NCBI GenBank assembly: GCA_012959275.1
Contig: DUDM01000061.1
Span: 1-55,024 of the forward strand
Direction: 5' to 3'
Length of the DNA: 55,024 bases
Source: Candidatus Poseidoniales archaeon
Lineage (GTDB): Archaea > Thermoplasmatota > Poseidoniia > Poseidoniales > Poseidoniaceae
In this document: positions 26,314 to 36,558 of the stretch, piece after piece
How positions within the stretch are numbered: the first letter of the stretch is position 1
Layout of the letters: the number at the start of each line of letters is the position of its first letter
Made by a program: the position numbers and the translations under genes
Notes under the pieces: model-generated
The model's input: the letters and a program-made list of their open reading frames with translations, nothing else
Database searches by the model: none
What the model was told of the DNA's origin: nothing

Positions 26314-28092
26314 TCAGGAGTTGTAGGCGTAAAAATCCCCGTTTGACCTTTGTTCGCGGTCTTTTCTTGAATCTACCTTGTTTATTCTTGGGCGTTTTGA
26401 ATCATGATCACGACGGAATGTCACATTGACTTCTTTCAAAAACCGGTTCATCCCAGCACGCAATTCGAATGGCCCTTCGACATTTCCCCATTTTCCTCCA
26501 TCTCCCTCAAAGACCAACAATGAGTCACTAACGATATCGATGAAGTAGACATCGTGGTCGATAACAAATGCCGACTTTTCGTTGGCTTCCATGGTTCTGC
26601 GAATGGCTTTGGCAGTTTCCATACGGGCATTGGCATCTAAGTGGGCGCTTGGTTCATCAAGCAAATACAGGTCAGCATCTCTGCCCAAACAAATGACAAT
26701 ACTCACAGATTGCAATTCCCCTCCACTCAATTTGTTGGCTCTCTTTTCGAGTAATTGATCAACGCCCAAGGCTCGAACTACGTTGACTCTGAATTCGCCA
26801 GAATGCCACCTTGGTCCGAGTTCTGCATCTAGCCATTCCCTGACCTTCAGGTCATGCTCTGCCTTGACATGTTGTGGTTTATAGGAAATTTTCGCCTCAG
26901 CGGTCACCCAACCTGCATCATATTCCATTTCCCCTGCAATCAATCTTGCCAACGTTGTTTTTCCGGTACCATTCGCCCCTACTACACCAACAACTTCAGA
27001 GCGGTGAATGTTTCCATCTCCGCTGGTTAATTTGAAATCACCTAGGTTCTTTTCCAAACCCCCCCATGAAAGGATGGGCATCCCTCTTTCAGAAGTTCTT
27101 TCAACATGAGTTTGGAAAATGATTGGTTTGTCTCTAATGCGGATGTTCTGCTCGGGTAAGAATCCATCGAGATAGACATTTATTGCAGTCCTTGTCGAGC
27201 GGGCAGGAGTAAATATTCCATATGCCCCTTTCTCGCCATACACAATGTGAATCAAATCGCATAATACATCGAGAATTGCCAAATCGTGCTCGATTACGAT
27301 AACTCTTCGAGTTTCTGCTAATTCCTGTATCAGGCCGACAATTCTCATTCTTTCATGAATATCCAAGTAAGATGATGGCTCATCAAAAAAATAGACGTCT
27401 GCTTCGCGCAATACTGTTGCGCATATTGCCACCCTTTGCAATTCACCACCAGAAAGTTGAGTTAATTTTCTATTGAGTAAATGGTCAATCCCCAATTTCA
27501 CCGTCATCTCTTCAAGGATTCCTCTTTCATCCACACCTTTCAGTAGTTCTTCGACTCCCCCTTCTAACATCTTGGGTAATTTATCGACATACTGGGGCTT
27601 TACTGCAACTGATACACCTGCTTCTGAAATCATAGTTAGGAAATCGCGCAATTCACCCCTTGGAAGGCTTTCGATGACATCTTCCCAATAACAATCATCT
27701 GAATCCCACTCGCCAAGGTTGGGAATAATTTGTCCTGAGAGAATATTTATTGCGGTTGATTTCCCCATTCCATTTGGTCCAAGAATTCCTACAACTTGGT
27801 CTTTTGAGGGAGTTGGAAGGCGAAATAACCTAAACCCATTTTGTCCATATCTGTGGATTCTATCTTCTCCCAATTCACTCGGTAATTGTGTAATGATGAG
27901 AGCATCGTGAGGGCATTTATTGATACAAATCCCACATCCTATACACAACGACTCCGAAATGTGCGGCTTGCCAGTTTTGTCATCTAAGATGATGCACTCA
28001 ACACCGTTTCTAACAGGTGGGCAAAATGCATGGCACTCATCCATGCACTTCTTTGGCTGGCAATTATCTTCTTTCAGAACTGCAACGCGCAT
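26314..28092 (-). CDS. ribosome recycling/RNase L inhibitor ATPase ABCE1 (Rli1)
   Basis: About 592 aa from the ATG at 28092, which follows AGAGGTG; the track start is a TTG. Two N-terminal ferredoxin-like clusters are intact: CQPKKCMDECHAFCP and CIGCGICINKCPHDA. Both ABC domains follow, with Walker A GPNGMGKSTA and signature LSGGELQRVAI, then GANGTGKTTLA and LSGGELQSVSI. ABCE1 splits ribosomal subunits after termination and is universal in archaea and eukaryotes. The C-terminal tail has an extra basic stretch (RKDREQRSN). It lies 46 bases downstream of the receiver-PPDK-like gene and may be co-transcribed with it. Confidence 0.97.
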   Translation of the reverse strand: MRVAVLKEDNCQPKKCMDECHAFCPPVRNGVECIILDDKTGKPHISESLCIGCGICINKCPHDALIITQLPSELGEDRIHRYGQNGFRLFRLPTPSKDQVVGILGPNGMGKSTAINILSGQIIPNLGEWDSDDCYWEDVIESLPRGELRDFLTMISEAGVSVAVKPQYVDKLPKMLEGGVEELLKGVDERGILEEMTVKLGIDHLLNRKLTQLSGGELQRVAICATVLREADVYFFDEPSSYLDIHERMRIVGLIQELAETRRVIVIEHDLAILDVLCDLIHIVYGEKGAYGIFTPARSTRTAINVYLDGFLPEQNIRIRDKPIIFQTHVERTSERGMPILSWGGLEKNLGDFKLTSGDGNIHRSEVVGVVGANGTGKTTLARLIAGEMEYDAGWVTAEAKISYKPQHVKAEHDLKVREWLDAELGPRWHSGEFRVNVVRALGVDQLLEKRANKLSGGELQSVSIVICLGRDADLYLLDEPSAHLDANARMETAKAIRRTMEANEKSAFVIDHDVYFIDIVSDSLLVFEGDGGKWGNVEGPFELRAGMNRFLKEVNVTFRRDHDSKRPRINKVDSRKDREQRSNGDFYAYNS

Positions 28093-28138
28093 GCTCAACA
28101 CCTCTGCTCAGACATTCACTCGCAAGCATTCCCATTCA

Positions 28139-31084
28139 TCAATCCGCCGCCTGAGGGGGTTTCTCAATAACCGCTTGACCGGCTTTACTATCGAGCAATA
28201 CTCTTGCTTCTCCGTCTAATGAAATATGCCTTAATGGACCTTCTTCAAAATCAGCATCGTGCGAGTCTAACCACTGCCAATCTACATCCTCATCAACACT
28301 TGTGATTGTTAAATATCCTACATTGAAGGAGACGATATTTTGGAAGAAATGTGTGCCTTGACTTGGTTCAACATGAATATCGTCCATCGCCGCCTCAACA
28401 ATTGCTTTGGCACCACTAATTTGGCCCCATGAAACTGGAATTCCAAGGCTTGGATCAGAAGATCCCCATCTACCTGGGCCGATTAGAATATACGGACGGT
28501 TCTGCTGGGATAACTTAGCATTTATTCGTTCTATAGGTTCATTGAGGTCTCGAGTTTTCAATCGATTTAGTCTTTGAGGATGGACGTATACTATGTCTTT
28601 GATATTATCAATAACACCGGTTCCAAGCGATAGACTGCTTTGGCAAATCATATTTTCACTCTTTAGGTGCGACATCTCCACTTCATATTGGGCACCAATC
28701 GTCAATAAAGGCCGTAATTGCAACATAGCAAAGCAACTCTTGCCTTCACTCTCTTCAATATCAACAGCGAATTCAATTTCAACTGGGCAAGACAAGTGGT
28801 TTTCGCAAGTTTTCAGCACGTGCCTCAAGATGTTTGCCAATGGAAAAGAATCTCTCTTTAGTGGGCCGTGGAATGAAAGAATTCTGGCCCCCGGCAGTGC
28901 TATACCATCTACAACCCTATCATCAGCAGCAACATATGTCGAAGCGATTTGTGATAACCTTCCATGCTCTTCTGCAATTGCAATATCTGAACTAACCATC
29001 AATTCAGTCAACGACTTTGAATCAATGTCCTCTTTAACTCCGGTTCGCAATGCCCAAAACTTGCGTTGGCTCTGCTCTAGCGCGCTGCTTGTAGATGCTA
29101 GTTGAAGCAATCTCTTCGGATGAGCAGGTGAAAACCTCAAGCATTTATCACCAGTTGCTACTGTAACTCCTAGGCCGAGTGCAATTGCTGCAACTCCATC
29201 CTCTGCTTTCATGGGTGCAACAGGGTAGTGATTTCGACTCCTTGCCACCCCTGAAATTAATGGATAGAATAGACCTTGATGTTGGCTTCCGACCAATTCT
29301 TGAATAACCACCGCCATTCTTTCTTCTTCGATAGAATTTGGTGTAGCCGCGACGTAGGCTTTTGCCCTCTTGGAATAAGTGGATGCGAATACAAGCTTCA
29401 CAGCATCTGCGAGTTGTTTTGTCCTAACTTTGTCATCTGGATGATCATTGGGAAGGAAATGAGTATCATATACTCCAGCAAATGGCTGGTGTAATGAATC
29501 TTCGAGAAGGCTGGAAGAACGTACAGCTAAGGGCCAATCAACAATTTCAAGGATTCTACTTAGGACGGCCATATGCTCTTCTTTGAATCGCCCTGCCAAA
29601 AAAGCAGACTTAACCTCCTCATCATCATGATCATCTGAAGCGAACTTTCCCAAATCATTTCTTTCAACAAATTCTTCAAATACATCAGTTGCCACAACCA
29701 TACTTTTAGGCACTACGATATCGATTTCTGGAAAGCGCTCGGCAATCCCGAGATCTGGCATTTTAGAATAGAAGAATGCTAGGCCCCTTCCTTTCCCTCC
29801 CAAGGTTCCGCTGCCAAGTTTCTGGAACCCACCAACCTTTTCAAGCCCAGCAGAATAGTCTCTAATTTCCCTTTTTCGATTTGCTGCAAGGAAGTCGTTG
29901 ATTGAGGACAGCAAGAACTCCCTAACTCCTTCCAATTGTTCGAAATCATCTAATTTTTTGGGCCTTATCGCGGCTGCAAGGCCAAATTCGGTTCTAGTTC
30001 TAAGCCAATGCGAGAAGTGATTGCGTGAGGCATGTCTTCCTACGCATTCAATTGGAACCTTTACGAGTTGATCTCTGAGTTGGCGTAGGTCTTCTGCCTT
30101 GCATATTTCCTCCCCTGCTTCATCTCTGAAAATAAAATCACCAAAACTCATATGTTGTTTCATGAAATTCTGAATCCTTTTTCTCAATGTGGATGATTCT
30201 TTGTGCAAAAAGGTAGTTTTCAAGGCCCTTGCAGGTTCGGCAAGTTCGGGATTTTTACTCTGAAAAAGAATGGGCATATGTGGGTTTCTTGAGCGGATTT
30301 CCTTCACAAGATCCAATCCAGCATTTTTTCGATTTCCCGATTTTGTTGGAAATTCTCCATCTGTGAAAACACCGATGATATTTTCACTATAGCGTTCAAT
30401 ATGCAGCATTGCATCTTCGTGATTGGTTGCCAACAATATCTTTGCTCTAGCCCTAAGGCGTAAGTTTTTCTCAAGTAAGTTCGCTCCTTCATACATTAAG
30501 CGACTTGTCTGTTTAACAAGCATTCTATAGAGAATTGGCAAGTAAGAAGAGTAGAACCTTCGGCTATCTTCAACCAGTAGAATTACCTGAACATCACCCT
30601 TTTCTACATCGTGGTGAACATTTCGCTCATCCTCCATCAATTTGCATATTGCCAATAGAATTCTACTATCTCCATGCCATACGAATGTGTGATCAAGTCC
30701 TGCTCCCTCTCTTAATGTTGCCAATTCTCTTGTGTTGTAGGCTAGTAATACTACACGCAGACCAGGCTGGATGCTCTTTACTTGCTGAGCGAATTCATGT
30801 ACTTTCATCGTGCCAATTCTTAGCATCGTAATGACAAGGTCAATACTGCGCTCTCTCAGCAAGGCAATAGCATCAACAGCATTTGGTGAATGGATGAAGC
30901 GCGGAGCCTGAGTTAAATTCAATTCGCTATATTCTTGGGCAATCAGTTCTGAAAGGTGGCCTGATTCCTCCAAAACGTAATGGTCGAATGGTGAAGAGAC
31001 GATCAAGACCTCTCTAATCTTGAACGGCGTTAGGCGCTCAAAGCGCCGCAAGTCTGAATCACCACTCTCCACGTGTACAACCAC
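28139..31084 (-). CDS. receiver-receiver-PPDK/PEP-synthase-like ATP-binding fusion
   Basis: 981 aa, GTG start. Residues about 20-150 look like a response-regulator fold whose phospho-Asp position reads ITM, so it is probably inactive. Residues about 165-310 look like a second receiver with VILLVEDSRRF and FTDGEFP, keeping acidic residues. The C-terminal half is the ATP-grasp domain of pyruvate phosphate dikinase/PEP synthase: GTLGGKGRGLAFF, AVRSSSLLEDS, PFAGVYDTHFLPND and IEFAVDIEESEGK. It ends in an extra block, IGPGRWGSSDPSLGIPVSWGQISGAKAIVE. The phospho-His swivel domain and PEP-binding barrel are absent, so it is unlikely to make PEP alone. A signalling or phosphotransfer role is inferred. 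It lies 43 bases after hpnD. Confidence 0.75.
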   Translation of the reverse strand: MVVHVESGDSDLRRFERLTPFKIREVLIVSSPFDHYVLEESGHLSELIAQEYSELNLTQAPRFIHSPNAVDAIALLRERSIDLVITMLRIGTMKVHEFAQQVKSIQPGLRVVLLAYNTRELATLREGAGLDHTFVWHGDSRILLAICKLMEDERNVHHDVEKGDVQVILLVEDSRRFYSSYLPILYRMLVKQTSRLMYEGANLLEKNLRLRARAKILLATNHEDAMLHIERYSENIIGVFTDGEFPTKSGNRKNAGLDLVKEIRSRNPHMPILFQSKNPELAEPARALKTTFLHKESSTLRKRIQNFMKQHMSFGDFIFRDEAGEEICKAEDLRQLRDQLVKVPIECVGRHASRNHFSHWLRTRTEFGLAAAIRPKKLDDFEQLEGVREFLLSSINDFLAANRKREIRDYSAGLEKVGGFQKLGSGTLGGKGRGLAFFYSKMPDLGIAERFPEIDIVVPKSMVVATDVFEEFVERNDLGKFASDDHDDEEVKSAFLAGRFKEEHMAVLSRILEIVDWPLAVRSSSLLEDSLHQPFAGVYDTHFLPNDHPDDKVRTKQLADAVKLVFASTYSKRAKAYVAATPNSIEEERMAVVIQELVGSQHQGLFYPLISGVARSRNHYPVAPMKAEDGVAAIALGLGVTVATGDKCLRFSPAHPKRLLQLASTSSALEQSQRKFWALRTGVKEDIDSKSLTELMVSSDIAIAEEHGRLSQIASTYVAADDRVVDGIALPGARILSFHGPLKRDSFPLANILRHVLKTCENHLSCPVEIEFAVDIEESEGKSCFAMLQLRPLLTIGAQYEVEMSHLKSENMICQSSLSLGTGVIDNIKDIVYVHPQRLNRLKTRDLNEPIERINAKLSQQNRPYILIGPGRWGSSDPSLGIPVSWGQISGAKAIVEAAMDDIHVEPSQGTHFFQNIVSFNVGYLTITSVDEDVDWQWLDSHDADFEEGPLRHISLDGEARVLLDSKAGQAVIEKPPQAAD

Positions 31085-31127: not shown

Positions 31128-32453
31128 TCAGACTCTAGGCAATAAGCCCACTCTTGCCAATCCATCCCAAATCGGAGTTAGGAACCGAGGTAGAATCCGG
31201 TGTTTCAAGTAAACGGTTGCAGCGAGAATTAGTTTCTGAGGTTTTGAAAGACCCACTCTTGATGTGAAAACGTCGCCTTGGCGTTTGACGATTCCATTCA
31301 GGATTTTCTCGTAGAATGCAATCATCGCAGCGGGAGAGTATCTGGCTCTACGAGGTAGGAGTGGCAACAATTTCCTCGCCTCCTTGAGATAACTTCGAGC
31401 ACGTTTTGCATATTCTTTGGTATATGGCTCCCATTGGTTATTCAAGAGAACACGACCTTCTGTGAAATGCTCAACATCTATATTGTTTGATTCAAGTTCA
31501 TCTAGAGGTAGATATACTCTGTTGCGGCCAATATCTTCCCCTACATCTCTGAGAACATTGATTAATTGCATAAAAACACCCCATGACTCAGCATATTTCT
31601 TTGCTCTTTCATCTTCGTAGCCATAAATCTCTATACACATTAAACCGACAACACTAGCTACTCTATAGCAATATAAGTACAAGTCATCGAATGTTTTGTA
31701 GCGATTGATGAACAAGTCTTCCTCCATTCCCGAAATCAAGTCATCAAAGTGTTCTCTGGAAATCCCATAATTCTTGACAGTGTCCTTCAAGGCAAGAAAT
31801 ACTGGGTCGGTTGAAGATAATTCATTGTAGCATGTGGAGAGTTTTTTGCGGAAGAAAAACAGTTGAGTTAATTTGTTTTTGTATGCATCTTCATTGATTA
31901 TTGTGCTTCGCCCATAAAGTTCCTCTAGGCGTAATCTGTATTGAGCAGCTTCAGGGTCTTCTTCTCCTTTGCCCCCTGGAAACCTGTCGGACCAATCTCC
32001 ATCAGCGATATCATCAGCACGCCTACAAAATGCATAAACAGCGCACATTGCTAATCGTTGTTCATCTGGGAGATATTTGAATGAATGGTGAAAATTCCCT
32101 GCTTCTCGAATTGTTAACTCCTCACAATAATTGTATGCCAAATGAAGCAATTCAGAAGGTGGAGTCCGTTCCCAAATCGGCGCATTGAGGTTTTCAAATG
32201 GATCCACCAATTCATTTTGTGGATTTGTTATTCCAATGAAGGCTGCACCTTCTCGTAAAGCCTCCATTGCTGTGATTGAAACGGCTTTAACCGCATCCTT
32301 AGTCAAAACTACTGCTGCTCGAAGTGTCTCAAGTGTGCTATTTTTGGGACGATATGAGTCTTTTCGGTTTGGTGCAGCACCAAGGAGTGGAGTCAGTAAT
32401 CCCTTCCTATCACCGCGCTCAAGCATGCTAATCGCCTCGTTCGTATCAGCCAT
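31128..32453 (-). CDS. hpnD: squalene/phytoene synthase family, HpnD-like
   Basis: 441 aa from the ATG at 32453. The trans-prenyl head-to-head synthase domain (about residues 110-400) has both Asp-rich motifs: CRRADDIADGDW and LRDVGEDIGRNRVYLPLDEL, plus RVASVVGLMCIEIYGY. These features fit HpnD, which makes presqualene diphosphate from two farnesyl diphosphates. Two further genes, HpnC-like and HpnE-like, lie immediately upstream, so the three-step HpnCDE route to squalene is complete. About 100 extra N-terminal residues are not part of the known domain. Phytoene synthesis is an alternative if the substrate is geranylgeranyl diphosphate, but the neighbours argue for squalene. Confidence 0.85.
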   Translation of the reverse strand: MADTNEAISMLERGDRKGLLTPLLGAAPNRKDSYRPKNSTLETLRAAVVLTKDAVKAVSITAMEALREGAAFIGITNPQNELVDPFENLNAPIWERTPPSELLHLAYNYCEELTIREAGNFHHSFKYLPDEQRLAMCAVYAFCRRADDIADGDWSDRFPGGKGEEDPEAAQYRLRLEELYGRSTIINEDAYKNKLTQLFFFRKKLSTCYNELSSTDPVFLALKDTVKNYGISREHFDDLISGMEEDLFINRYKTFDDLYLYCYRVASVVGLMCIEIYGYEDERAKKYAESWGVFMQLINVLRDVGEDIGRNRVYLPLDELESNNIDVEHFTEGRVLLNNQWEPYTKEYAKRARSYLKEARKLLPLLPRRARYSPAAMIAFYEKILNGIVKRQGDVFTSRVGLSKPQKLILAATVYLKHRILPRFLTPIWDGLARVGLLPRV

Positions 32454-32471
32454 CACCTTTCAGGGCATCGG

Positions 32472-33452
32472 TTAAGTGAGTTTTTGCTGACTTCTCTTAT
32501 ATTTTTTCTCTGCCCTTCGCCATTTTCTCCATGTTGAGAATAACATTTGTAGTTGAGAAAATTTACTGACTCTTGGCCTTTTCTTGAAAGTGTCAAATTT
32601 TTGTCGACGTATCGACTTGAGGATTGATTCCCCTCCCTTGGTAAACATCTGCAGATCAACCGCTAAGCGTGGGTCGATTTGCGGCCATAATTTTCGACCT
32701 TCATCGAAAAGGGATTGTGCCCTTTCTACCTGAAAAGAAAGTAAGTTCCTCCATTGTTCGTTGACTACTCGCTGTTCATACATCTCAATGGTATAACCGA
32801 ATTTCTCCATTTCATCTAGGGGAATGTAAATTCGGTCTTGATCTAGGTCTCTGGAGATATCTTGCCAATGATTTGCCAATTGCAATGCAGTACAGGTATT
32901 ATCTGCAAGCCCCCTCATTTCTTGATTATCATGCCCATATACATAGAGAAACATGTGTCCAACAGGGTCCGCTGAATGTACGCAGTATTGCTTCAACTCA
33001 GCCCAATCATTGCATCTATTTGTTGATTGGTCCATTTTGAAAGCCTGAATCAGTTTGATGAAAGGTTCTACTGGAATGTTTTTTTCTTTGGCTGTATGCT
33101 GAATTGCAATATGAATAGGATGTTTTGCTGAGCCTGTCCACTCATTTTCCGCAGCCCTTTGTAAATCATCTTGCCATTCTTGCAATAACAGAAGGCGTTG
33201 GTCTGGGGGGAATGGGGCATCATCTCCGAGGTCATCACCGTAGCGACAGAAGGCATAGATATTCTCGATATGTTGCTTAATTTCTTTGGGTGTAAACCAA
33301 TTAGAAATCACGAAGTTTTCGTAATGAGACTTTGCGATTAGAGTACAATATGATTGGGCTTCTACAAGTTCTCTATAGAGATTATAGCCGGCTAATTCAA
33401 CACTGCCATCAGGTGAAATTTGATGTTCACCCCAGTTGAATTTTTCACCCAT
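32472..33452 (-). CDS. hpnC: squalene/phytoene synthase family, HpnC-like
   Basis: 326 aa. YCTLIAKSHYENFVISNWFTP is the HpnC-type opening ('HYENF.V'). The Asp-rich motifs are CRYGDDLGDDAP and HWQDISRDLDQDRIYIPLDEM, and YCVHSADPVGHMFLYVYG matches the 'YC..SA.PVG' block. HpnC converts presqualene diphosphate to hydroxysqualene. The gene starts directly after the HpnE stop and is 18 bases before the HpnD ATG, so it is the middle gene of an operon. Its C-terminal part is basic, ending in KYKRSQQKLT. Confidence 0.87.
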   Translation of the reverse strand: MGEKFNWGEHQISPDGSVELAGYNLYRELVEAQSYCTLIAKSHYENFVISNWFTPKEIKQHIENIYAFCRYGDDLGDDAPFPPDQRLLLLQEWQDDLQRAAENEWTGSAKHPIHIAIQHTAKEKNIPVEPFIKLIQAFKMDQSTNRCNDWAELKQYCVHSADPVGHMFLYVYGHDNQEMRGLADNTCTALQLANHWQDISRDLDQDRIYIPLDEMEKFGYTIEMYEQRVVNEQWRNLLSFQVERAQSLFDEGRKLWPQIDPRLAVDLQMFTKGGESILKSIRRQKFDTFKKRPRVSKFSQLQMLFSTWRKWRRAEKKYKRSQQKLT

Positions 33453-34874
33453 CTACCAGGTCCTCCAACTATCGTCTCTCCTTTTAGGAGGGCTTGGCCA
33501 CCATCGCCATTTTTTCTCTGGATTCCAATTTTCATTCAATAAACTCGATGCTGCCAGCAATCCGCTTCGAACTGCTCCTTCCATCGTTGAGGGCCAGTCG
33601 GTATTTGTCCATGCTCCTGCGATGTAGATGCCATCTTTTGCAATCAAATCTTGGCTCAATCGGTATTTTTCACTTCCAGGAAGAGGAGCAAATGTCGCCT
33701 TACGGTTGCGGATTACAACAAATGAATCGGGTTCATTCCATAAATGGGGGTAGGTTCCTTTTACAACTCTTCGATATTCCTCAAGGAATTGTTCATCGTC
33801 CCAGTCCAGCCATTTATCACCGCAACTAATCGGAACAGAAACCCATTGGCCAATACCTTCAGGCATTTTCTCTTCATCAATTTCAGAATTCTTATTGAAC
33901 AGCATTTGGATTATCGGTTCATCAACACAAACTGCAAAAGTGAATGATTTGGGTAGAACTTCAGCGGAATGTAATGCATGGATTCCAATCAATGACCGAT
34001 ACTCTAAATGGTCTACTGCTTCAACAATTTCAGAGAACTCTGATAGTAATCTCCCTGTCAAGTGATGTGGTAGTGCTACAACAATCTTTTCACATGAAAT
34101 GATTTCTTTACTCAAGCATACTTTAAGCCCATTTTCTTTTGAAATTGAATTTACTTTAGTAGACAATTTCACCTCTACTCCCGATTCTTCAAGTGTTCTC
34201 AAAAGATGGGGGTGTAATGAATCTGAAAGGTCCGAGGTGAATGCCCCTACATCGAAGGCATGCGCATCACCGAATAATCCGCGCTGGAAAAGGAAAGCAG
34301 AGAGGGCTGCACTCGCTTGTGAAACAGGAATATTCAATGCTGCGAGAACAAAGAACCCCCAGAAGCGATCTATGGCTCTTTGACTCTGACCTTTTTCTAT
34401 TAGCCATTGTTCAAAATTTAAGTCATCAAGGGCTGACATTTGTTCTGGAGTCATTTCTGATAATTCTTTGATGACCTTCCTCATTGCGATTTTATCAGAT
34501 AAACTAAGAAAAGGGAATTTAATCATTGAACCAGCCATATGGTTAGGAGGTTCTAGACGGCCATCGCTTAGTGAAGCGATTCGCCCCCCACCGACTTGCA
34601 AAAATGGCAAATCTGTTTTTGCTTGTAACTTGATGCTATCGCGGGCACCACACCTCGCTAATAATTGTAAAAAACAATCATATACGCGGAAGCAAGCATG
34701 CTGGCAATTATCGAGCAGCAAGCCGCTTTTCGGGTCCTTGATACTTGAGACTCTGCCGCCAAGTTGGGCTCTCGATTCAACTAGAATAACTTCGTCTTCA
34801 GGGGAGGAATCTGCGATAGCAAGGGCTGAGGCTACTCCAGATAGCCCCCCTCCTACCACAACGATGCGAGCCAT
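33453..34874 (-). CDS. hpnE: FAD-dependent hydroxysqualene oxidoreductase, HpnE-like
   Basis: 473 aa from the ATG at 34874; the track ORF begins at a TTG 25 codons earlier, outside the family. The dinucleotide-binding motif is RIVVVGGGLSGVASALAIA, then LVESRAQLGGRVSSIKDPKSGLLLDNCQHACF, which corresponds to the 'LDNGQH' block of HpnE. FPFLSLSDKIAM and the C-terminal GIYIAGAWTNTDWPSTMEGAVRSG complete the phytoene-desaturase-like fold. HpnE reduces hydroxysqualene to squalene. Being first in an hpnE-hpnC-hpnD set makes squalene the most likely product; carotenoid desaturation is the alternative for this fold. Confidence 0.87.
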   Translation of the reverse strand: MARIVVVGGGLSGVASALAIADSSPEDEVILVESRAQLGGRVSSIKDPKSGLLLDNCQHACFRVYDCFLQLLARCGARDSIKLQAKTDLPFLQVGGGRIASLSDGRLEPPNHMAGSMIKFPFLSLSDKIAMRKVIKELSEMTPEQMSALDDLNFEQWLIEKGQSQRAIDRFWGFFVLAALNIPVSQASAALSAFLFQRGLFGDAHAFDVGAFTSDLSDSLHPHLLRTLEESGVEVKLSTKVNSISKENGLKVCLSKEIISCEKIVVALPHHLTGRLLSEFSEIVEAVDHLEYRSLIGIHALHSAEVLPKSFTFAVCVDEPIIQMLFNKNSEIDEEKMPEGIGQWVSVPISCGDKWLDWDDEQFLEEYRRVVKGTYPHLWNEPDSFVVIRNRKATFAPLPGSEKYRLSQDLIAKDGIYIAGAWTNTDWPSTMEGAVRSGLLAASSLLNENWNPEKKWRWWPSPPKRRDDSWRTW

Positions 34875-35031
34875 ATTCCCAAACCGTTCGGAACTGCCAA
34901 AGTGAATCAACTCTTGCTTTGTCAACTCCCTTTTCCGCATCTTTTTCAACCCGAGTTAATTGGCTTCAGCAGGCATCTTGCGTAGCAAGCGTTTTACAAG
35001 GGCCGGAGACAGCAGGGGTTGGGGATGAGTC

Positions 35032-36558
35032 ATGCAGTGTACTTCCTGTGTTTCAGAGATTCCCGATGACAGTATTTTTTGCACTGAGTGTGGCTCTCGT
35101 CAAGATCTCTCAAAAGCTTCACTTCCGGGGCAAGTTGGCCTGGCTGGTGGAGAAGTATCAGGAGGCCGCGGATTTGGTGTTGTCAGTGGTGAAGCAATTC
35201 GCCAGGAAAGAGAGCAACAACAAATGCAGCAAGGACAACTACCCAGTGGAATCCTAGACCAAATAAACCAACAAAATGTACCACCTCAACAGTTTCCGCC
35301 CGACCATATGTTAGACCAAATGCAGCAAGGACATCAACCAGTAATTCAGGACCCTAATGCCCAACCGATGTCTTCTTTGCTAGACCAAATGGCGACCGGA
35401 ATTCCTTCATTAGACCAGCCACACCTAGATGCTGCTGCCATCGAAGCGGCTTCATTGCAAGGCATGCCTCAGCCTGATTTAGGTGCATTAATTCAAACTC
35501 CACAATCATTGCAGTCTACATACAACCCCTCTGTTAGTCCAACTGATGAGATGGTCAATAGATTGAGTATTGCTGAGAAGGAAATCAAGAATGAGCGTCG
35601 AGGTCAATGGCTGCAAATGAATCAAGATAGCGCTTCATCTGTACTTGCTCAAATCAGTGGTGAGTTACCTGCGCATTTACAAGAGGAGGCGAGTAAGGCG
35701 GCCGAATTCCTGAAAGAAACTATCGGGGGTGGTGAAAATGAAGCCAGCATCGATAAAAGTTTGTTGCGAAGAATGGCCGAAGTTTCAGTTCGCCGAGTTG
35801 CAAGGAAGCGCGGGGTAGCAGTTGAAACTCCACAATCTAAAACGGAGTCTGACTTACTAATTATCAATATCACTTATGTTGATGATGGCAGAGTATTGGA
35901 TACTCCTGAAGACCTTGCCCGTGCATTTCAACATGCAATTTCAACGGAATTAGCATTGAAAGGAATTGACCTATCTGCAGAAATCAACCTCTTCCGTTCC
36001 AAAGATGGTGAAGTTGAATTGGTTCATGGAAAGACTTCAACTCCTGAACCTGAAGACGAAGAGGAAATGTTTGCATGCGAAATGTGCGGAGGATTGGTAG
36101 TAGAATCTGATTCGAAGTGCAGTCATTGTGGTGCCGTATTTGAAGATGAAGTAGATGATTCATCCAATGGGCCTCCCGGCCCTGGAAGTAGGGGAAGCGG
36201 CCCACCGGGCCCCGGAAGTAGAGGCTCTGGTCCACCTAGCGGAGCCAGAGGTGGCCCATCAGGGCCAGCAAAGGGCGGTCCACCCGGTAGAGGCGGAGGC
36301 CCACCCGGTGGTGGTGGCGGCCCTTCAGGTCCTGGAAGAGGAGGTCCCTCACGTTCGGGTCCTCCCGGTGGTGGTGGCGGCCCTCCAGGTGGTCCAAAGC
36401 AAGGCGGTCCAGCCGGTAGAGGCGGTGGCCCTCCAGGTGGTCCAAAGCAAGGCGGTCCACCCGGTAGAGGCGGTGGCCCTCCAGGTGGTCCAAAGCAAGG
36501 CGGCCCCCCTGGCGGTCCGAAGAAAGGTGGCCCTCCAAGAAAGGGCCCACCGCGATGA
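35032..36558 (+). CDS. double zinc-ribbon protein with Gly/Pro-rich repeat tail
   Basis: 508 aa. A zinc ribbon at the N-terminus reads MQCTSCVSEIPDDSIFCTECGSR; a second ribbon lies near residue 345 as CEMCGGLVVESDSKCSHCG. Between them is a long Gln/Pro-rich linker followed by a helical, acidic domain containing LLRRMAEVSVRRVARKRGV. The final 130 residues are almost only Gly, Pro, Arg, Lys and Ser in GGPPG-type units, probably disordered and possibly RNA- or protein-binding. I recognise no family for the whole protein. It is preceded by a divergent hpn operon and ends convergently against sucD. The reverse strand of the tail gives a false Pro-rich ORF. Confidence 0.72.
   Translation: MQCTSCVSEIPDDSIFCTECGSRQDLSKASLPGQVGLAGGEVSGGRGFGVVSGEAIRQEREQQQMQQGQLPSGILDQINQQNVPPQQFPPDHMLDQMQQGHQPVIQDPNAQPMSSLLDQMATGIPSLDQPHLDAAAIEAASLQGMPQPDLGALIQTPQSLQSTYNPSVSPTDEMVNRLSIAEKEIKNERRGQWLQMNQDSASSVLAQISGELPAHLQEEASKAAEFLKETIGGGENEASIDKSLLRRMAEVSVRRVARKRGVAVETPQSKTESDLLIINITYVDDGRVLDTPEDLARAFQHAISTELALKGIDLSAEINLFRSKDGEVELVHGKTSTPEPEDEEEMFACEMCGGLVVESDSKCSHCGAVFEDEVDDSSNGPPGPGSRGSGPPGPGSRGSGPPSGARGGPSGPAKGGPPGRGGGPPGGGGGPSGPGRGGPSRSGPPGGGGGPPGGPKQGGPAGRGGGPPGGPKQGGPPGRGGGPPGGPKQGGPPGGPKKGGPPRKGPPR
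36403..36498 (+). repeat. 48-base tandem repeat inside the Gly/Pro tail
   Basis: Two head-to-tail copies of a 48-base unit (36403-36450 and 36451-36498), each coding GGPxGRGGGPPGGPKQ, are nearly identical at the DNA level, with one or two differences. Shorter related units flank them. Near-identity at silent sites points to recent slippage or unequal crossing-over. Confidence 0.8.

Follow-up and report, generated by a model that had tools for sequence, protein, structure and literature searches.

A PPDK-type ATP-grasp protein with two receiver modules from a Poseidoniales archaeon, and the linkage of its family to glutamate dehydrogenase genes

The PPDK_N-type ATP-grasp of PEP synthase (pyruvate, water dikinase) and PPDK is also reused, for another acceptor, by rifampin phosphotransferase and by the prodigiosin ligase PigC/RedH. 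The latter two enzymes carry recognisable His domains. REC-PPDK fusions have been listed as "Bacteroides-like" and as present in Heimdallarchaeota, with no function given (Galperin et al., 2018; PMC5847659). The architecture is already known, and the protein described here is a member of this known, uncharacterised fusion family. Assignment thus leads to these fusions, for which no reported activity was found, and not to a characterised family; neither a published function nor a link to glutamate dehydrogenase (GDH) was found for them in the open-licence literature. We analyzed a 55,024-nucleotide stretch of DNA from a Candidatus Poseidoniales archaeon (contig DUDM01000061.1 of assembly GCA_012959275.1), referred to as the window, which encodes one such protein, and compared it with its relatives.

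Domain architecture and distribution of the family

The ORF call yields a protein of 981 aa with a GTG start (Table 1), which is the sole PPDK_N protein of the window's assembly (1.92 Mb, 77% complete). Pfam searches with this protein returned PPDK_N as the clear match, along with a receiver domain below threshold and, weakly, DUF5752, while matches in NCBIfam and PDB were mainly to the ATP-grasp part of PEP synthase. The likeness to rifampin phosphotransferase and PigC/RedH in NCBIfam covers approximately aa 453-607 only and is far below every cut-off. Relatives were sorted into T1, the receiver type, T2, a separate paralogous clade, and NT, the type with a C-terminal nucleotidyltransferase domain.

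The first receiver module (REC1) is matched by PF00072 in all 26 family members (best 7e-8), and its profile matches solved receivers from E 8e-6 onwards. The position of the phospho-Asp is occupied by Met87 (M in 43 of 44 T1 sequences) and that of the conserved Lys by Trp136 (W in 44 of 44), and judged from profile and residues REC1 is a pseudo-receiver without phospho-Asp and Lys. PF00072 recognises the second module (REC2) less clearly, in 15 of 26 members with a best value of 5e-4, but REC2 has the full receiver site, consisting of the acidic pair E172/D173 together with D242, S276 and K295, the last three being invariant in all 44 T1 sequences. A DUF5752-like segment (PF19027, best 3.5e-9), which an earlier sequence-only reading of this DNA did not contain, lies between the receivers and the ATP-grasp. 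Within the ATP-grasp, K431, R522, E771 and Q789 are invariant across T1 and T2, and E769 is kept in 43 of 44 T1 sequences. Searches of Pfam and NCBIfam gave no match to a PEP/pyruvate barrel, and the protein stops about 170 aa past the ATP-grasp. The observation made in the sequence-only reading, namely two receiver modules, the first with its phospho-Asp replaced, fused to a PPDK-type ATP-grasp with no PEP barrel behind it, is therefore confirmed.

Table 1. Features of the receiver-kinase gene and its downstream neighbour, in window coordinates.
Feature	Position	Strand	Basis or remark
ABCE1-type ABC ATPase	26314..28101	-	co-directional, 37 bp downstream of receiver-kinase gene
Whole gene, REC-REC-DUF5752-PPDK_N-C-terminal domain, 981 aa	28139..31084	-	ORF, Pfam, family alignment
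REC1 pseudo-receiver, aa 20-157	30614..31027	-	PF00072 in 26/26 members, PDB receiver matches, residue counts
Met87 codon, phospho-Asp position of REC1	30824..30826	-	family alignment, residue counts
REC2, complete receiver site, long first helix region, aa 160-312	30149..30607	-	PF00072 in 15/26 members, residue counts
Asp242 codon, predicted phosphorylation site of REC2	30359..30361	-	family alignment, residue counts
DUF5752-like middle segment, aa 312-420	29825..30151	-	PF19027 in 26/26 members
PPDK_N ATP-grasp, aa 427-808	28661..29806	-	PF01326, E 2.4e-39; ATP-site K431, R522, E769, E771, Q789, R791 conserved
C-terminal domain, fold unassigned, aa 809-981	28142..28660	-	in all PPDK_N relatives found, including receiver-less types
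GPGRWG motif, aa 869-874	28463..28480	-	at least 95% conserved in 81 relatives
GTHFF motif with His912, candidate phospho-carrier, aa 910-914	28343..28357	-	alignment of 81 relatives

Of 293 genomes searched in the phylum, 101 gave matches, many of them full length at 980-1050 aa. Alignment A1, with 26 sequences including three Bacteroidota proteins from plasmid records, shows one architecture end to end, and tblastn found copies in Parabacteroides, Phocaeicola and Prevotella at about 36% identity over 98% of the query length. Since the 981-aa architecture recurs at about this length across the phylum and in Bacteroidota, it is not a product of chance. No relatives were found in viral contigs, and a role as a defence system was discarded as PADLOC gave no match.

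The ATP-grasp together with the GPGRW/GTHFF C-terminal domain also occurs with other front ends. Proteins of the NT type measure 1050-1100 aa, receiver-less short forms exist (L048, L052), and some T2 members without both receivers are open frames of 632-713 aa. At two loci (L049:7561-10179 and L050:8360-10954), the PPDK_N protein is 864-872 aa long and includes this C-terminal domain; its N-terminal part has no Pfam match and looks KaiC/RecA-like by eye. In a tree of the core, T1 consists of a Poseidoniales-like group, which includes the window protein, a second archaeal group and the Bacteroidota; the T2 and NT clades each have a support of 1.0, and the Bacteroidota group adjoins T2 with a support of 0.9.

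Glutamate dehydrogenase genes beside the family

GDH is one of the main entries of ammonia into metabolism. Among 48 T1 loci from archaea and Bacteroidota, a GDH gene lies within 200 bp of the T1 gene in 18 and within 5 kb in 12 more; in 17 of the 48, no GDH was seen in the sequence covered, in several cases because the contig ends. The 18 close pairs comprise 13 with GDH followed by T1, two with T1 followed by GDH, two tail-to-tail and one head-to-head, and these varied arrangements argue that the linkage is more than mere inherited order. In 16 of 17 loci the T2 gene is located directly 3' of a GDH gene, from which 0-130 bp separate it; T2 loci read GDH, T2 and then NT, often with a metallophosphoesterase gene. 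The NT type encoded after T2 behind GDH (L046:5605-8805, L047:10208-13348 and others) resembles a further enzyme of this system. The T1 partner is mainly an E. coli-type NADP-GDH, typed by comparison with the GDH of the window genome, and the T2 partner is a Pyrococcus/Bacillus-type GDH. Most receiver-less T2 proteins still adjoin GDH, which assigns the link to the core of DUF5752, ATP-grasp and C-terminal domain.

In Parabacteroides distasonis the T1 gene and gdhA are arranged head-to-head, and four genes on there is another GDH gene; Phocaeicola likewise has both, its T1 gene being head-to-head with the GDH gene. No GDH was found within 8 kb of the T1 gene of one Prevotella. By tally, 48 of 51 T1 genomes, including that of the window, have an E. 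coli-type GDH; only about 48 of about 170 genomes with this GDH carry a T1 gene, and the enzyme is also encoded in about half of the genomes without T1. With so many genomes encoding the same GDH and no T1 gene, the gene is dispensable, and GDH does not require it.

The linkage of the T1/T2 family to GDH genes, with paralogues matched to GDH types, is apparently new and constitutes our strongest new evidence. A functional link between the family and GDH is likely. Since archaeal and gut Bacteroidota relatives both adjoin GDH, the family probably is a switch for nitrogen metabolism. As best overall reading we propose, tentatively, a signal-gated ATP-grasp phosphotransferase or regulator of a family that acts on GDH.

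Alternatively, the protein would be a metabolic enzyme, transferring phosphate to a substrate or product of GDH (2-oxoglutarate, glutamate) or to a related metabolite; its receivers would then sense feedback. The relatives named by the NCBIfam matches (PEP synthase, rifampin phosphotransferase and PigC/RedH) do act on small molecules, and enzymes of nitrogen and redox metabolism (glutamine synthetase, NuoEFG-like) are neighbours at some family loci. Nevertheless, we regard this as unlikely, because neither the PEP barrel nor another known substrate domain is present, a housekeeping enzyme would rarely carry receivers, and two paralogue clades paired with two distantly related GDH types fit recognition of a protein better than a shared metabolite.

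The C-terminal domain and the signalling input

The C-terminal domain gave no match among Pfam families or solved structures and is conserved in the relatives, in agreement with the sequence-only reading, which had taken the C-terminal block as the mark of a distinct family. His912 is the sole invariant His across the 81 relatives that combine the ATP-grasp with the GPGRW/GTHFF domain; this invariance is the single positive indication of a catalytic His912.

The phospho-His swivel PF00391 was matched neither in the 981-aa protein nor in the whole, 77% complete assembly, and it is absent from 10 of 14 related genomes with the receiver-kinase gene. Where it does occur in related genomes, it lies in a frame of ordinary PEP-synthase size. 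The idea of a separate His-domain partner put forward in the sequence-only reading is thus not supported in these genomes. Its statement that the protein is without a swivel holds for PF00391 and is less certain for a very divergent swivel within the C-terminal domain. By eye, GTHFF...GIGY recalls the swivel motif TSHAA...GIPAVVG, and the terminal VxxDGR recalls VTVDGT. A comparison with archaeal PEP-synthase swivels by hhalign gave a P of 0.047, which decides neither way, in a 14-column match that does not contain His912; in the shuffled-profile control one of 60 shuffles scored higher, up to 21.3 compared to 18.8 for the real profile. As this profile-profile match falls short of significance, the C-terminal domain has no supported homology to the PEP-synthase swivel. 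AlphaFold2 models of the C-terminal domain and of the full-length protein, calculated from the window protein and two fragments of a near-identical genome only, had mean pLDDT values of 30 and 32, too poor for a fold search.

The input to REC2 was approached through the histidine kinases encoded in T1 genomes. HisKA domains were detected in none of the 14 T1 genomes from the order and class to which the window belongs and in all 23 other T1 genomes searched, the groups f16 and f11 having many histidine kinases. The HATPase matches that were identified are GyrB and TopoVI-B in the window's own genome and MutL in relative G164, and the others are of similar frame length; a cognate histidine kinase in the own genome was rejected as a candidate, the matches there being GyrB and TopoVI-B. 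Other receiver-domain proteins exist in these HisKA-less genomes. The phosphate on REC2 in these archaea may come from the ATP-grasp of the protein itself, from a small molecule or from a kinase that escaped recognition, and the puzzle is raised where a fully conserved receiver obtains its phosphate in archaea without detectable histidine kinases.

One answer would be a self-contained phosphorelay, in which phosphate passes from ATP to His912 and on to the protein's own Asp242. The protein would then act as a source of signal driven by ATP, independent of any histidine kinase, and would control a partner, GDH or another, by binding. The full REC2 site kept in the Poseidoniales-like genomes that show no HisKA, and the identified HATPase matches, namely GyrB, TopoVI-B and MutL, are in line with it. 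However, the other receiver proteins in the same genomes indicate that kinase-less receivers are not special to the 981-aa protein, the f16 and f11 relatives are well supplied with histidine kinases, some T2 members have lost both receivers, and donors of the acetyl-phosphate type may be an alternative source, so that we think a relay of this kind improbable.

The gene context would be the same if the protein regulated GDH by binding and transferred no phosphate at all, the ATP-grasp being an allosteric ATP/AMP sensor and GDH being inhibited or activated by the contact. The phospho-acceptor is indeed only putative; still, a PPDK catalytic set plus one invariant His in 81 relatives exceeds what pure binding needs, and we give this explanation little chance.

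The window locus, proposed role and comparison with known systems

The GDH gene of the window genome is located on another contig, and no GDH was found near the receiver-kinase gene in the five loci of the window's own family, f1. In all five, a gene for an ABCE1-type ATPase, a ribosome-splitting enzyme named here from its ferredoxin domain and two ABC domains, is located directly downstream in the same direction. A role of the protein in translation or ribosome recycling together with ABCE1, the GDH neighbourhood being irrelevant in this lineage, is very unlikely despite this constant pairing, which is confined to one family: in the sister family, f2, an XPD-like helicase is encoded downstream, and GDH lies about 2.3 kb upstream of the T1 gene in eight of eight loci. 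Upstream of the receiver-kinase gene, two phytoene/squalene-synthase-like genes and an amine-oxidase-like gene stand in a row (31128-34949), possibly a squalene-type isoprenoid cluster as read from the sequence. The ORF at 35032-36558 has ends that resemble zinc ribbons and a long tail of low complexity, rich in Gly and Pro, with GGPPGGPKQ repeats.

In the signal-gated phosphotransferase that we prefer, the ATP-grasp would phosphorylate His912, and the phosphate would then be handed to GDH, or to a ligand bound to it, altering GDH activity. Whether Asp242 of REC2 is phosphorylated, a state sensed together with REC1, would turn this transfer on or off. Covalent modification of GDH via His912 is possible, and we advance it with reserve. 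In the window organism, where GDH is encoded elsewhere, control would act at a distance. The stand-alone kinase under signal control suggested in the sequence-only reading is plausible, and the gene context points to GDH as its target or partner, chemistry and target both being the parts that we infer; overall, that interpretation is partly supported.

At its most far-reaching, the proposal would describe a new class of post-translational nitrogen regulators that Bacteroidota share with archaea. Such a regulator would be a PPDK-like kinase under receiver control, equipped with a divergent phospho-His domain of its own, that would phosphorylate GDH, with separate paralogues for each GDH type; this full version is speculative and rather doubtful. 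If it were true, a receiver-gated GDH kinase could explain the trans-acting control of GDH reported in Bacteroides. An effect of this kind on GDH activity is named in the title of Baggio and Morrison (1996), as cited in PMC4539542. Going by that title, the Bacteroides control is a lead, not a result, as regards identity with the T1 family, and the divergent T1/gdhA order seen here in Bacteroidota does not by itself fit "downstream of gdhA". With its position next to GDH in archaea and gut Bacteroidota, this conserved gene for a kinase-like protein provides a concrete candidate that would be easy to delete.

The closest known systems are the Bacteroidota REC-PPDK proteins, annotated as 'PEP/pyruvate-binding domain-containing protein', which have the full-length architecture and the conserved motifs in common with the window protein. 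The window copy differs from them in being archaeal (Thermoplasmatota), in belonging to a genome without detected histidine kinases and in that its own family is not found beside GDH. With PEP synthase and PPDK it shares the ATP-grasp and the ATP residues, but it has no barrel or recognisable swivel and carries additional receivers and a DUF5752-like segment. GlnE and GlnD are comparable solely in the way they work: no sequence relation to them was seen, and GDH would take the place of glutamine synthetase or PII as the target. Like them, the window protein would modify an enzyme of ammonia assimilation, and a nucleotidyltransferase domain is present in NT, the tandem paralogue.
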